This document shows, in pieces, positions 9,883 to 57,518 of a stretch of 64,000 bases of DNA. The stretch comes from Paracoccus thiocyanatus (GTDB lineage: Bacteria > Pseudomonadota > Alphaproteobacteria > Rhodobacterales > Rhodobacteraceae), in NCBI RefSeq assembly GCF_900156255.1, contig NZ_FTMK01000003.1:62001-126000 (forward strand), given 5' to 3'. The translations under genes and the position numbers were made by a program. Positions within the stretch are counted from its first letter, which is position 1. Each line of letters begins with the position of its first letter. Below the pieces are notes generated by a model, which was not told where the DNA came from, ran no database searches, and saw only the letters and a program-made list of their open reading frames with translations.

Positions 9883-9994
9883 CGGTTGCCGGAGTATTTG
9901 GGAAACGGTGAATTGCCCTGGTCGCGCCTTTTCTGCCGAGGTTGCGGCATCGGCCCGGTTGCTTTCACCGTTTTCTAAAATACTCCGGCAACCG
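9883..9994. repeat. Long palindromic element between convergent genes (family copy 1)
   Basis: The left arm (9883-9912, starting CGGTTGCCGGAGTATTT and ending AAACGGTGAA) is complementary to the right arm (9964-9994) over about 30 bases with one bulge and two or three mismatches, around a 51-base centre. It fills the gap between the kinase gene and the convergent fadJ. The position fits a bidirectional terminator. The same arm sequence recurs at about 14.1, 14.3, 21.0, 48.5, 51.2 and 57.5 kb. Confidence 0.85.
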
Positions 9995-14073: not shown

Positions 14074-14111
14074 GCTGTTTCCTTTCCTTCGACTTGGCGC
14101 CGGGCTTCCCG

Positions 14112-14310
14112 GTCGCATGGGTATTTATGAAACGGTGAAGCGATTAACCTTTTCTCAACATTTCTGGCCTAGCCTCGAGGGGCGGTACAGGCTGGGGAGC
14201 CGATGACCGCAAACGGTGAAAGCGCCCCGGACGACCCTGGCATTTTCGGAAAGCCCGGTCATCCGGGGCGCAGCATCGCCCTTTCACCGTTTTCCAAATA
14301 CCCATGCGAC
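14112..14310. repeat. Nested palindromic element between acyl-CoA dehydrogenase and GST genes (family copy 2)
   Basis: The outer arms GTCGCATGGGTATTT..GAAACGGTGAA (14112-14138) and its complement (14283-14310) match at all but a few positions across a roughly 145-base centre. A second inverted pair lies inside: AACGGTGAAAGCGCCCCGG (14212-14230) against CCGGGGCG..CCCTTTCACCGTT (14264-14291). The right-hand TTTCACCGTTTT can therefore pair with either of two left partners. The segment lies in a 267-base gap between two leftward genes. Confidence 0.8.
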
Positions 14311-14340
14311 CTTGCCACCAGGCGCCCCGCTTTGCCCGTT

Positions 14341-20967: not shown

Positions 20968-21020
20968 CCGGGGGCTTCGCGCCCCCGGACCCCCGCGGAG
21001 TATTTTGAAAACGGAGAAAG
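20968..21020 (+). terminator. GC hairpin plus AGTATTTT single-arm element after purS
   Basis: CCGGGGGC (20968-20975) pairs with GCCCCCGG (20981-20988). Then comes a single arm of the recurrent element, GCGGAGTATTTTGAAAACGG (20995-21014) followed by AGAAAG. There is no matching second arm. The layout, stop codon then GC hairpin then AGTATTTT, is repeated after ispH and resembles an intrinsic terminator whose T-tract is TATTTT. Confidence 0.65.
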
Positions 21021-21045
21021 CCGGCCGGGCGGGGAGGGCGGGTCC

Positions 21046-46331: not shown

Positions 46332-49265
46332 CTAGGCGTCCAGCACCGCGTCGCAGCGCGCACAGGTGCCCGGATGCGCGTGGCTGCCGACATCGGGCAG
46401 GATCTTCCAGCAGCGCTGGCATTTCTTGCCCTCCGCCCGCTCGAACACCACGCCGATTCCGGGCACGTCCGACATGCGGAACGCCTCGGCCGGGGCCGGA
46501 TCGCTGGTCAGGCTCAGCGCCGAGGTGATGCAGATATCGGCGAAATCCACCGATTTCAGCGCCTGCAACTCTTCGGCGGCCTCGACATGCACCACCGGCC
46601 CGGCTTCCAGGCTGGCGCCGATAACCTTGTCGGTCCGCTTGATCTCCAGCGCGGCGGTGACGGCGCGGCGCACGCGGCGGATGGTTTCCCATTTGCGCGC
46701 CAGCGGCTCGTTCAGCCATTCAGCCGGGGTTGCCGGGAAATCGTGCAGATGCACGCTGTCATCCTCGGACGGAAAGCGGCTCAGCCAGACATCCTCCATG
46801 GTAAAGGGCAGGATCGGCGCCAGCCAGGTGACGAGCCGGTGGAACAGCAGGTCCAGCACCGTGCGCGCCGCCCGCCGACGCAGCGCATCGGGGGCGTCGC
46901 AATAAAGCGCGTCCTTGCGGATGTCGAAATAGAAGGCCGACAGGTCCACGGTGGCGAACTGGAACACCGCCTGGAACACGCCCTGGAAATCGAAGCGGTC
47001 ATAGCCCTGGCGCAATTGCCCGTCGATCTGGGCAATGCGGTGCAGCACCCACTGTTCCAGTTCGGGCATCGCCGCCGGCTCGACGCGCTCGGCCTCGGAA
47101 AAATCCGCCAGGTTGCCCAGGATGAAGCGCAGTGTGTTGCGCAGCCGGCGATAGCTGTCGGCGGTGCCCTTCAGGATTTCCGGCCCGATGCGCTGGTCGG
47201 CGGTATAGTCGGTCTGCGCCACCCAAAGCCGCAGGATGTCGGCGCCGTATTGCTTGATGACCTCGGCCGGCACGATGGTATTGCCCAGCGACTTGGACAT
47301 CTTCATGCCCTTTTCGTCCAGGGTAAAGCCATGCGTGACCACGTTGCGATAGGGCGCCCGGCCCCTGGTCGCGCAGGCCTGCAAGAGCGAGGACTGGAAC
47401 CAGCCGCGATGCTGGTCGGTGCCCTCCAGATAGACGTCGGCGATGCCGTCCGGCGCCCCGTCGGCGCGGTCGCGCAGCACGAAGGCATGGGTCGAGCCGC
47501 TGTCGAACCAGACGTCCAGCACGTCCATCACCTGGTCGTAATCGGCCGGATCGGCCACGCCCGCCAGCACCTGGGCGGCAAAGCCGGGGCGATACCAGGC
47601 ATCGGCGCCGTCCCGTTCGAAGGCGGCAATGATGCGGTCGTTCACCCGCTGGTCGCGCAGCAGGAACTCCGGGTCCGTGGGCCTTGCGCCCTTCCTGACG
47701 AAGCAGGTCAGCGGCACGCCCCAGGCGCGCTGGCGCGACAGCACCCAGTCGGGCCGGTTCTCGACCATGGAATGGATGCGGTTGCGGCCCGATTGCGGCC
47801 ACCATTTCACCAGCCTGTCGATGCTGGTCAGCGCGCGCGCGCGGATGGTGTCGCCATAGTCGCCCATGCCGTCCGTCAGCCCGTGGTCGATGGCGGCGAA
47901 CCATTGCGGCGTGTTGCGATAGATCAGCGGCGCCTTGGAGCGCCAGCTATGCGGATAGGAATGCTTGATCTTGCCCTTGGCCAGCAGCGCGCCCGCATAA
48001 GCCAGCTGCTTGATGACGCTGACATTGGCCGGGCCGTCCTTGCCGTCCGGCGCGATGATCGCCTGGCCGCCAAAGATCGGCAGGTCGGCGCGATAAGAGC
48101 CGTCGGGTTCCACATTATAGGTCATCGGCAGCTTGAAGCGCAGCCCAAGCTGATAGTCGTCGTCGCCATGGCTGGGCGCGGTATGCACAAAGCCGGTGCC
48201 CGCATCCTCGGTCACATGCTCGCCGGGCAGCATGGGCACGGCGTAATCCCACTCGCCCGCGCCGCCCTCGACCCCGCGCAGGGGGTGGGCCAGCACCAGC
48301 CCCTCCAGGTCGGCCGCGGCCACGTCGCGGACCCGCTCCCACTCCTCGACCTTGGCGGCGGCGCGCACGCTCTCGGCCAGCGCATCGGCCAGCACCAGCA
48401 ATTCGCCCGCCTTCGCGGTCGCATTCTCGGCCACCGCGCCCACGCGATAAAGCCCGTAAGCCACGCCCGGATTATAGGCCACCGCCCGGTTCTGCGGGAT
48501 GGTCCAGGGGGTGGTGGTCCAGATCACCACGCTTGCAGGTTTCTCCGTTGCCCAAATACCCTGCGACGATTCCACCGGGAAGCGCACCCAGATGGTGTGG
48601 CTCTGATGGTCGTGATACTCGACCTCGGCCTCGGCCAGCGCGGTCTTCTCGACCGGCGACCACATCACCGGCTTCGAGCCCTGATAAAGCGAGCCGTTCA
48701 TCAACAGCTTCATGAACTCGGCCGCGATCACCGCCTCGGCGTGATGGTCCATGGTCAGATAGGGGTCGTCCCATTTGCCGGTGATGCCCAGCCGCTTGAA
48801 CTCTTCGCGCTGGATGCCGACCCAGGATTCGGCAAAGCGGCGGCATTCCTGGCGGAACTCGACCACGTCCACCGCGTCCTTGTCGCGGCCTTCCTTGCGA
48901 TATTGCTCCTCGATCTTCCATTCGATCGGCAGTCCGTGGCAGTCCCAGCCCGGCACGTAGCGCGCATCCCGGCCCATCATCTGGTGGCTGCGCACGATGA
49001 TGTCCTTGATCGTCTTGTTCAGGGCATGGCCGATATGCAGGTGGCCGTTCGCATAGGGCGGGCCGTCATGCAGGATAAAGGGCGCCCGGCCTCCCGGCTG
49101 TCCCGCCGCCCGCTCGCGCAGCCGGTCATAGATGCCGATCCGCTCCCAGCGGGCCAGCCATTCCGGCTCGCGCTGCGGCAGGCCGGCGCGCATCGGGAAA
49201 TCGGTCCGGGGCAGGAAGACGGTGTCGCGGTAATCGGGCGCGGTCGGGGTGGTCGTGTCGCTCAT
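46332..49265 (-). CDS. ileS: Isoleucyl-tRNA synthetase
   Basis: A 977-residue class I synthetase that charges tRNA-Ile. The HIGH motif is in PPYANGHLHIGHAL (about 69-82). The editing domain is inserted from about 190 to 400 and begins with VIWTTTPWTIPQNRAVAY (about 247-264). KMSKS is in KGMKMSKSLGN, and the C-terminal zinc finger has KKCQRCWKILPDV and GTCARCDAVL. The start MSDTTTPTAP fits the family; 54 extra upstream codons in frame are rejected. Residues about 230-243 (SSQGIWATEKPA) coincide with a copy of the dispersed palindrome arm. Confidence 0.97.
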   Translation of the reverse strand: MSDTTTPTAPDYRDTVFLPRTDFPMRAGLPQREPEWLARWERIGIYDRLRERAAGQPGGRAPFILHDGPPYANGHLHIGHALNKTIKDIIVRSHQMMGRDARYVPGWDCHGLPIEWKIEEQYRKEGRDKDAVDVVEFRQECRRFAESWVGIQREEFKRLGITGKWDDPYLTMDHHAEAVIAAEFMKLLMNGSLYQGSKPVMWSPVEKTALAEAEVEYHDHQSHTIWVRFPVESSQGIWATEKPASVVIWTTTPWTIPQNRAVAYNPGVAYGLYRVGAVAENATAKAGELLVLADALAESVRAAAKVEEWERVRDVAAADLEGLVLAHPLRGVEGGAGEWDYAVPMLPGEHVTEDAGTGFVHTAPSHGDDDYQLGLRFKLPMTYNVEPDGSYRADLPIFGGQAIIAPDGKDGPANVSVIKQLAYAGALLAKGKIKHSYPHSWRSKAPLIYRNTPQWFAAIDHGLTDGMGDYGDTIRARALTSIDRLVKWWPQSGRNRIHSMVENRPDWVLSRQRAWGVPLTCFVRKGARPTDPEFLLRDQRVNDRIIAAFERDGADAWYRPGFAAQVLAGVADPADYDQVMDVLDVWFDSGSTHAFVLRDRADGAPDGIADVYLEGTDQHRGWFQSSLLQACATRGRAPYRNVVTHGFTLDEKGMKMSKSLGNTIVPAEVIKQYGADILRLWVAQTDYTADQRIGPEILKGTADSYRRLRNTLRFILGNLADFSEAERVEPAAMPELEQWVLHRIAQIDGQLRQGYDRFDFQGVFQAVFQFATVDLSAFYFDIRKDALYCDAPDALRRRAARTVLDLLFHRLVTWLAPILPFTMEDVWLSRFPSEDDSVHLHDFPATPAEWLNEPLARKWETIRRVRRAVTAALEIKRTDKVIGASLEAGPVVHVEAAEELQALKSVDFADICITSALSLTSDPAPAEAFRMSDVPGIGVVFERAEGKKCQRCWKILPDVGSHAHPGTCARCDAVLDA
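48541..48567 (-). repeat. Copy of the AGTATTT/ACGG element inside ileS
   Basis: In the sense direction of ileS this reads GTCGCAGGGTATTTGGGCAA followed by CGGAGAA. Compared with the 14.3-kb arm (GTCGCATGGGTATTTGGAAA then ACGGTGAA) it differs by one gap and a few substitutions. It is translated in frame as SQGIWATE and lies at the entry to the editing domain, a region of variable length in IleRS proteins. Confidence 0.6.
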
Positions 49266-49933: not shown

Positions 49934-50566
49934 CTAGCGCCGCGGCGGCCGGGCCTTGTAGACCGGCAACCGCCAGCCGAAAACCATGCTGCCCGCGCGC
50001 AGCAGCAGCACCACCGCGCCGCCGCCGATCAGCGCCCAGCCGCGCGGGCTGCCCAGCGTCAGCAACAGCAGCGCCGCCACCGCCCCGCCAAAGGCGGCCG
50101 TGACGTAAAGCTCGCGCTGCTTCAGCACCAGGGGCATCTCGTTGCCGACCACATCGCGCATCAGCCCGCCGAAGGTGCCGGTCATCACCCCCATCAGCAC
50201 CGTGACGACCGGGCCGACCCCCGCCTCCAGCGCCACCCCGACCCCGGCCGGCACCGCCACGGCCAGGGCAAAGGTGTCCAGCCACAGGATGGCGCGATAG
50301 CGGCTTTCCAGCAGATGCGCGGTCAGGAACACCGCGGCGGCGGCCCCGGCCGTCAGCAGCAGCAGTTCCGGCCGCTCGACCCAGAACACCGGCGCCCGGC
50401 CCAGCACCAGGTCGCGCAGGGTGCCGCCGCCGATCCCGGTCAGCGTGGCCAGAAAGACGAAACCCACCAGGTCAAGCTGGGCGCGGCTGGCGACCAGCGC
50501 CCCGGTCAGGGCAAAGACCAGCACGCTGGCATGATCCAGCAGCGCGATCAGCGCCCCGATGCTCAT
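49934..50566 (-). CDS. TRIC / UPF0126 family membrane protein (YicG-like)
   Basis: A 210-residue protein with about seven membrane segments in two repeats: [43 protein letters not shown] (about 10-53) and [17 protein letters not shown] (about 123-139). The GGG.LRD signature is that of bacterial trimeric intracellular cation channels, and transport of glycine has been suggested for YicG. Its start overlaps rnhA by 4 bases. Confidence 0.92.
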
Positions 50567-51030
50567 CCCGAAACCTTCGCCGGCTTGAAGGGCGCCATGC
50601 CCGCCCGCGCCAGTTCATCGGCGCGCTCGTTCTCGGGATGGCCGGCATGACCCTTGATCCATTCCCAGCGCACCCGGTGCCGGGCCTGCGCCAGGTCCAG
50701 CCGCTGCCACAGGTCGGCATTCTTCACCGGCTTGCGGTCGGCGGTGCGCCAGCCGTTCTTCTTCCAGCCGTGGATCCATTGCGTGACGCCGTTCTTTACA
50801 TAGGCGCTGTCGGTGGTCACGGTGATCTCGCTGGGCCGCTTCAGCGTCTCAAGCGCCGCGATCGCCGCCATCAACTCCATGCGGTTGTTGGTGGTCAGCG
50901 CCTCGCCGCCGGACAATTCGCGTTCCTTCAGCACCTGCCCGTCCTCCAGGGCGCGCATCAGCACCCCCCAGCCGCCGGGGCCGGGATTGCCGCTGCATGC
51001 GCCGTCGGTCCAGGCATAAAGCGCGCTCAT
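50563..51030 (-). CDS. rnhA: Ribonuclease HI
   Basis: A 155-residue endonuclease that cuts RNA in RNA-DNA hybrids. The catalytic acids are in [18 protein letters not shown] (Asp8, with the segment at 5-22), NRMELMAAI (Glu), [13 protein letters not shown] (Asp) and [13 protein letters not shown] (His/Asp near 125-137). The length equals that of the E. coli enzyme. The start MSALYAW is set by alignment to the family; 31 further codons in frame upstream are rejected. Confidence 0.96.
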
Positions 51031-51197
51031 CCCACCATCCTTTCCAGGCCGGCCAGCGTGCCTGGGTCCAAACAGCCCCGGCGCGACGGCGCATCCACCA
51101 TATCGGCGGCCCCGCAATCGCAAACTCGGGACATCCCCGGCGGCTGCGCCTTGCCGCGATATCCTTGGACCGGCATCGACCAGAGCTTCATCCCCAT
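51027..51197 (-). CDS. Possible 56-residue protein upstream of rnhA
   Basis: An open frame starting at ATG 51197 ([20 protein letters not shown]) and ending in a 4-base overlap with the rnhA start. It has four to five cysteines spread as C-D-C and RRGCLDPG, but no known family was recognised. The junction with rnhA would allow translational coupling. It begins inside or next to the repeat element, so it may equally be leader sequence. Confidence 0.3.
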
Positions 51198-51255
51198 CTT
51201 TCTCCGTTTCAAAAATACTCCGGGGGAGGCCCGCAGGGCCGGGGGCAGAGCCCCC
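51198..51255 (-). terminator. GC hairpins plus single-arm element after ispH
   Basis: In the direction of ispH: GGGGGC-TCT-GCCCCC (51241-51255), then GGCCC-TGC-GGGCC (51228-51240), then CCGGAGTATTTTTGAAACGG (51203-51222) followed by AGAAAG. The order and the TATTTTTGAAA tract are the same as after purS. It probably ends ispH; no second arm is present. Confidence 0.62.
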
Positions 51256-51281: not shown

Positions 51282-52232
51282 TCAGGCTTCGCGCAAGACC
51301 CGCGGCACCTTGAACTCGACATTCTCGCGCGCCGTCTCGACCAGTTCGACCGTCACCTCATAGCGGTCGCGAAAGGCCGCGACCACCTCGTCCACCAGCA
51401 CCTCGGGGGCCGAGGCGCCGGCGGTCACCCCCACCGCCCGCGCCCCCGCGATGGCGCGCCAGTCGATCTGGTCGGCGCGCATCACCAGTTGCGAATAGGC
51501 GCAGCCGGCGGCGCGGCCGACCTCGACCAGCCGGCGCGAATTGGAACTGTTCGGCGCCCCGATCACCAAAAGCGCGTCGATCCGCCCGGCGATGGCCTTG
51601 ACCGAGGCCTGGCGGTTGGTCGTCGCATAGCAGATATCCTCCTTGGCCGGGCCGACGATGCCCGCAAACCGGGCCTGCAAGGCGGCGACGATGGCGGCGG
51701 TGTCATCGACCGACAGCGTGGTCTGGGTGATGAAGGCCAGCCGCCCAGGGTCGCGCGGCTCGATCCGCGCCACGTCCTCGACCGTCTCGACCAGCAGCAC
51801 CTCGCCCTCGGGCAATTGTCCCATGGTGCCCAGCACTTCCGGGTGGCCGGCATGGCCGATCATCACCATCTGCAAGCCCTCGGCGTGATGGCGCTCGGCC
51901 TCGACATGGACCTTGCTGACCAGGGGGCAGGTGGCGTCGACAAAGACCATCTCGCGCCGCCGCGCCTCGGCCGGGACCGATTTCGGCACGCCATGGGCGG
52001 AAAAGATCACCGGCCGGTCGGAGGGCGCATCGTCCAGTTCCTCGACGAAGACCGCGCCCTTGTCGCGCAAGCTGTCCACGACGAACTTGTTGTGCACGAT
52101 CTCGTGGCGGACATAGACCGGCGCGCCCCATTTCTGAAGCGCCAGCTCGACGATCTTGATGGCGCGGTCCACGCCGGCGCAAAAGCCGTGCGGCGCGGCC
52201 AGGTAAAGGGTCAGGGGCGGTTTCTTGTCCAT
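51282..52232 (-). CDS. ispH: 4-hydroxy-3-methylbut-2-enyl diphosphate reductase
   Basis: A 316-residue iron-sulfur enzyme, last step of the methylerythritol-phosphate pathway giving IPP and DMAPP. The cluster cysteines are in [13 protein letters not shown] (Cys18), [14 protein letters not shown] and [31 protein letters not shown] and [11 protein letters not shown] are substrate-binding blocks. The length matches the E. coli protein. The start [10 protein letters not shown] is chosen by alignment. Confidence 0.96.
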
Positions 52233-52272
52233 GGGCCACCACCTAACCCCGGCCCGTGCGGCCCGCAAGGGA

Positions 52273-57385: not shown

Positions 57386-57448
57386 GCGCCCTTGTTAGCC
57401 CGCAGCGCGCGGGGCGGAAAGGCCGATCCGGTGGCAGGGCGGTGATTT

Positions 57449-57510
57449 GAGTATTTGAAAAACGGTGAAATGGACCGCTTGGGGGGCTGTTCACCGTTTT
57501 CCAAATACTC
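57449..57510. repeat. Compact palindromic element (family copy, best-matched)
   Basis: GAGTATTTGAAAAACGGTGA (57449-57468) pairs with its complement (57491-57510), 20 of 21 positions overall, around a 20-base spacer. It is the clearest copy of the dispersed element. It sits between two leftward genes, after the DMT transporter and before the helicase, and is a probable terminator. Confidence 0.87.
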
Positions 57511-57518
57511 ATGCGATT

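Follow-up and report, generated by a model that had tools for sequence, protein, structure and literature searches.

Repeats that have turned into protein are, to our knowledge, known above all from Rickettsia. The Rickettsia palindromic elements (RPEs) are about 150 bp long, with nearly half of them located within genes, and are found in frame within unrelated protein genes, as described in the accessible part of a review (PMC10969869, citing Ogata 2000, 2002) that there deems similar events in other prokaryotes merely conceivable. The repeat described here from Paracoccus thiocyanatus resembles the RPEs in being read in frame in unrelated protein genes. Unlike in the RPEs, the coding unit is one arm only, about 28 nt long, and only four of about 150 copies were judged to be both internal to a gene and in frame. 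The two were compared by description, and the Paracoccus repeat is not claimed to be an RPE. By this analogy, the Paracoccus case would be an event of the kind known from Rickettsia, differing in its half-element form and in its host, as Paracoccus is not an intracellular parasite.

The repeat also resembles REP elements with RAYT in having many short non-genic copies, partly arranged as inverted pairs that form hairpins. Known REPs carry GTAG/CGTC tags, according to the accessible part of PMC3733652. No RAYT (Y1_Tnp) gene was found in the source genome (G000) by a search that was positive in 5 of 14 control genomes. Given the missing Y1 transposase match, mobility by REP/RAYT was rejected here. 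Across the genus, a Y1 transposase match was present in 12 of 125 Paracoccus genomes, two of which are repeat-rich (G078 and G097). By form, the repeat can also be likened to MITEs, being small, dispersed and partly palindromic, with no coding gene of its own seen. A literature search covering titles and the beginnings of abstracts returned no report of the present case.

A dispersed Paracoccus repeat with a copy in ileS

The window, i.e. the whole 64,000-nt stretch of DNA that was analyzed, belongs to a 3.52-Mb genome assembled in 62 contigs (99.92% complete). Its ileS frame matched NCBIfam TIGR00392 with 804 bits (cut-off 621.4), and the closest named relatives of the encoded IleRS are those of P. 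siganidrum (86%) and P. sulfuroxidans (82%). Allowing at most one mismatch, GTCGCATGGGTATTT was found at 16 sites in the genome and at none in the reversed control. Twenty-six arms, taken from around these 16 sites and from 57.4-57.5 kb of the window, were aligned to build a model (R1) from which the ileS copy was left out. This model identified at least 151 genome matches at E values up to 10, with 150 of 800 first-look candidates scored, and nine matches of at least 20.2 bits in the window, where the next best reached 9.6 bits (Table 1). A weight matrix from the same arms was applied to 0.74 Mb of the genome, a sample picked in part to contain known matches, and gave 156 matches scoring at least 14 compared to one in the reversed sequence, with 150 distinct copies scoring at least 18.

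A neighbor within 250 bases was present for 76 of the 150 copies, and the other 74 were single. The neighbor pairs comprised 22 inward-facing, 11 tandem and eight outward-facing arrangements; strong hairpin folding was obtained for five of the inward-facing pairs (z -5.3 to -10.0), with the pair near 57.5 kb in the window at -33.8 kcal/mol (z -5.31). By codon-preference thresholds of our own, one or both 90-nt flanks are not coding-like in 142 of the 150 copies, while five lie in frame and three out of frame between coding-like flanks, the term intergenic being based here on flanks and not on gene annotation. Rfam at gathering score matched only a tRNA in the window and left the repeat unmatched. 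Repeat matches at E≤1e-3 were present in 50 of 125 Paracoccus genomes, 14 of which had at least 53, close to the 55 scored per genome. In a sample of 197 other genomes of the family, 26 have between one and 10 divergent matches. Divergent copies were also observed just downstream of ileS, but not within it, in some other Rhodobacteraceae genera (L055, L063, L073, L079 and L090).

Table 1. The ileS gene and the repeat arms in the window. Arms were scored with model R1; the E value was obtained in the window with filters off.
Feature	Position	Strand	Score or basis
Repeat arm, inward pair	9883..9912	+	27.1 bits
Repeat arm, inward pair	9961..9994	-	20.2 bits
Repeat arm, inward partner of 14279..14311	14110..14141	+	33.3 bits
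Repeat arm, the 14.3-kb arm of the sequence-only reading	14279..14311	-	36.1 bits
Single repeat arm	20998..21022	+	22.7 bits
ileS, isoleucine--tRNA ligase, 978 aa	46332..49268	-	ORF; TIGR00392; PDB IleRS 1ffy, 8c9e
Single repeat arm, in frame in ileS	48539..48567	-	23.3 bits, E 3.2e-6
Single repeat arm between minus-strand ORFs 51282-52268 and 50563-51123	51198..51221	-	22.3 bits
Repeat arm, inward pair	57440..57472	+	26.6 bits
Repeat arm, inward pair	57489..57516	-	29.5 bits

The ileS arm codes for IleRS residues 234-243 (minus-strand segment 48567-48541), where the coding strand reads GTCGCAGGGTATTTGGGCAACGGAGAA and the full segment GTCGCA-GGGTATTTGGGCAACGGAGAA is located. The sequence-only reading had quoted a 17-mer from this place (48567-48551, minus strand) and had described it as nearly the same as the 14.3-kb arm, GTCGCATGGGTATTTGG (14310-14294, minus strand). 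A hand alignment bears this out, with 24 of 28 columns identical, one 1-nt gap and three substitutions, and the segment encodes SSQGIWATEKPA, as had been claimed. Model R1, although built without this copy, scores it with a genome-wide E value of 1.8e-4 (3.5 Mb). The weight matrix gives the segment a score of 34.9, compared to -0.5 or less for 612 other ileS windows. When the 21-residue peptide was recoded synonymously 20,000 times with Paracoccus ileS codon usage, no recoding reached this score (maximum 30.7), and thus the likeness lies in the DNA rather than in the peptide. The ileS segment is homologous to the dispersed genomic repeat, and the resemblance is beyond chance.

That an ordinary IleRS loop resembles the repeat by chance could be argued from the loops of similar length in L055, L056, L057, L059, G113 and PDB 1ffy. 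However, the DNA of 72 IleRS loops from other genera is not repeat-like (best score 6.5), and the same peptide in distant relatives, named beforehand as evidence for chance, was not seen among them. Model R1, which recovered 10 of 11 supplied repeat-bearing loops and missed L005, likewise gave no match inside ileS in the non-Paracoccus loci supplied, L053-L110 included, and matched there only outside the gene. No recoding reached the observed score, and the same arm occurs in two further genes. On the basis of the genome-wide E value, the recoding test and the other-genus loops, chance similarity was rejected and is considered extremely improbable. The ileS copy consists of one arm only and not of the whole palindrome, and it folds into no local hairpin (z 0.87).

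A probable insert at a predicted hairpin tip of the IleRS editing domain

A structure model with a mean pLDDT of 72.8, built from 31 fairly close sequences, places the arm residues between strands 216-232 and 245-251, at the tip of a hairpin just before WTTTPWT, which we take to be the threonine-rich editing peptide. The pLDDT is 80 for residues 231-240 and 85 for residues 241-250, and falls under 50 for residues 194-220. Alignment with S. aureus IleRS (1ffy) shows a two-residue gap at the arm site; the same place holds KGVV in S. aureus and GDALFTKTPTD in some other Rhodobacteraceae. With high probability, the loop is the predicted tip of a β-hairpin in the editing (CP1) domain and exceeds the short loops of sister species by about five residues. 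We infer that the enzyme tolerates this loop because the loop has survived, because of where a model of moderate confidence places it and because the site is variable.

Of 125 Paracoccus genomes, 123 gave an IleRS, and the loop could be read in 122. A repeat-derived loop is present in 33 of these (scores 17.4-36.5), and the remaining 89 score at most 5.3. This clean split answers the alignment of Rhodobacteraceae IleRS proposed in the sequence-only reading and supports the reading of the loop as an insert; sisters that lack the repeat have loops five residues shorter (G066 versus G115, G015 versus G085). Two sequences first sorted as repeat type by length and motif (G031 and G087) were dropped with scores of -1.1 and -7.1; the main counts were redone without them, and they remain in the 35-row tree mentioned below and, one or both, in the pair and flank tests. 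The earlier proposal that a repeat was inserted into the synthetase and tolerated as a loop is therefore supported, but for one arm instead of a whole palindrome. The loop is common to many species and not special to this lineage, and at least two other genes carry such inserts.

We infer an insertion event, and very probably the segment is a half copy (about 28 nt) of the Paracoccus palindromic repeat that was captured in frame and is tolerated as a loop. A repeat copy would have been inserted or copied into ileS once or a few times, with disruptive insertions at other places being lost, and the ileS insert would have survived because the loop accepts very different sequences. The loop would then have passed to descendants, moved between species through recombination and disappeared from some lineages, with no new enzymatic function required.

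An IleRS tree from which the loop was left out requires 15 changes of the trait; a first version with 35 loop rows also had 15 changes, 13 of them forced by well-supported branches. One insertion followed by simple descent is therefore not the history. The 15 changes could also reflect many independent insertions of the arm into the same IleRS loop, instead of one insertion with transfer and loss, and another repeat family does occupy this loop in a Roseovarius. However, the copies share strand and reading frame and, wherever this part is preserved, read CGCAGGG, without the T of intergenic CGCATGGG, whereas independent insertions should differ. Many independent insertions are thus considered unlikely. 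The opposite direction, in which the repeat family would descend from the ileS segment, could draw on F-type loops such as GTATTTTCGCAACGAAGAAGCC in G115, which closely resemble some intergenic arms. Such an origin is barely credible given that the ileS copies are without the T found in most of the 26 aligned intergenic arms, that divergent matches extend to 26 of 197 other family genomes, and that in some other genera the repeat lies just behind ileS while the loop there is not repeat-like.

The site is hypervariable. Between fixed anchors, the stretch measures as little as 35 and as much as 76 residues in different members of the genus, and near neighbors can have very different loops (G107 versus G018 and G067; G005 versus G081). 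A search for recent spread of the loop by recombination compared flank divergence between carriers, as a ratio to the gene, and gave 0.53 versus 0.58 for the 20 codons upstream and 0.75 versus 0.81 downstream, only a slight reduction.

Several further observations were made at this site. In the 122 Paracoccus genomes, residues 231-246 can differ wholly in very close relatives, in the manner of a cassette-like swap, and distant species can share similar long loops (G077 and G107; G005 and G108). The IleRS loop of an uncultured Roseovarius (L106:1185-1262) is a different GC-rich palindromic repeat with 18 mostly partial matches in its own genome, ileS included; the Paracoccus repeat model gives no match to it.

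Carriers of the loop tend to have repeat-rich genomes, as at least five matches at E≤1e-3 were present in 23 of 33 carriers versus 8 of 89 others and at least 20 in 17 of 33 versus 1 of 89, in counts that are capped near 55 and can include the ileS copy itself. In 13 independent pairs, 4.6 pointed the same way and 0.2 the other way (median p 0.125), a trend in the right direction that is not significant, and much of the association may be shared ancestry. No genomic repeat match at E≤0.05 was obtained for three of the carriers (G063, G085 and G127); weak copies may escape that search, because the ileS copies of these same genomes were missed too. The genome G089 is repeat-rich, yet has a short ileS loop and a helicase gene without insert.

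In-frame copies in other genes

Of the 156 weight-matrix matches, nine were candidates for being read through. Four of these were judged to lie in frame within a gene (ileS, cobG, a ligase-associated DEXH helicase and a TIGR03862 flavoprotein), and four adjoin or overlap stop codons or gene starts. The ninth, a weak match (15.7) in what is presumably a ligA-like gene, was taken as false. One copy (L312:12482-12515) was observed to provide the last codons of one gene, presumably xdhC-like, as well as the start codon of the next, presumably guanine deaminase-like.

The helicase gene was present in 27 of the 28 genomes searched. Its arm lies in frame at L325:1111-1138 (G000:C4:111610-111637), between LAGFLPSL and LYVSPLKAL. 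The insert is present in the source genome and in 16 of 27 relatives (loci L357-L383), giving 21-26 residues at the site, compared to 12-14 residues in the 11 relatives without it. In CobG, the arm is read in the antisense frame (SPFPKYSCDS) and lies in a linker at L339 (G000:C9:75737-75764). CobG (loci L412-L426) was matched in 25 of 28 genomes. Besides the source genome, the arm is present in 8 of 14 parsable relatives and absent in the other six, where the linker is shorter; 11 more fell outside the parsing pattern. The repeat is read as GIW in ileS, as GYL in the helicase and antisense as KYPCD in CobG. Translation of one and the same element in several frames and in both orientations indicates that the DNA came before its use in protein.

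The flavoprotein (L324) has its repeat-like stretch in nearly all parsed relatives, including repeat-free genomes, and for this reason it is not counted as an insertion. In the flavoproteins of G143 and G097 (L391 and L393), a further GC-rich palindrome was observed in frame just before this stretch. An arm apparently in frame, AVAGYLGNGEMA, was also observed in CobN of Paracoccus G076 (L279:1501-1533; G076:C9:32049-32081).

The same repeat is found both outside and inside genes. As judged by comparison with orthologs that lack it, an apparent in-frame insert is present in ileS, the helicase and CobG. The ileS loop is thus one of a small class of in-frame repeat inserts in Paracoccus.

Codon conservation and what the inserts may mean

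The loop codons of the 33 carriers are strongly conserved, with GGT in 27 of 31 Gly, ATT in 28 of 29 Ile and GCA in 20 of 21 Ala. As majority codons, these three are unique to the loop among the 61 Gly, 37 Ile and 85 Ala ileS columns counted, their overall use being 8.8% (GGT), 7.1% (ATT) and 4.7% (GCA). In the rest of ileS, comparing carriers pairwise shows different codons for the same residue in 28.9% of cases. In the helicase, where the frame is unlike that in ileS, all 17 sequences retain TAT and TTG; TTG (13.5% of Leu) alone is informative here, because TAT already accounts for 63.9% of Tyr codons.

Two explanations are available: the inserts may be young or renewed, or selection may act on the DNA. 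Steady renewal from genomic copies is disfavored because the carriers in which no repeats were detected keep GGT and ATT, with the caveat that weak copies may be missed. A local mRNA hairpin as the cause of the ileS codon conservation was rejected on the basis of the z of 0.87. The coding copies could instead be retained as DNA, in which case the arm would be recognized by a DNA-binding protein or used in some other DNA-level process, and the genes would serve this role and their protein at once. The conservation of GGT, ATT and GCA beyond the rest of ileS and of the helicase TTG beyond its overall use would fit such retention. However, GGT and ATT persist in G063, G085 and G127, in which no repeat was found, a young or repeatedly renewed insert would give the same picture, and the ileS copy is without a local hairpin, so that retention for a DNA-level role is considered quite improbable. 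We know of no binding protein for the repeat arm. It is a tentative and rather unlikely idea that the arm is a functional DNA element whose core is selected at synonymous sites in at least two genes, ileS and the DNA-repair-associated helicase, in different frames. If true, genes would carry a chromosome-level signal through their protein code, and variable loops could house such signals.

For the preferred reading of a half repeat captured in frame and tolerated as a loop, Paracoccus provides a clear case outside Rickettsia. It concerns an essential synthetase, and three genes offer natural pairs of orthologs with and without the insert. The origin of new protein segments from non-coding repeats thereby becomes directly testable, and one hairpin of the IleRS editing domain emerges as a site that accepts inserts.
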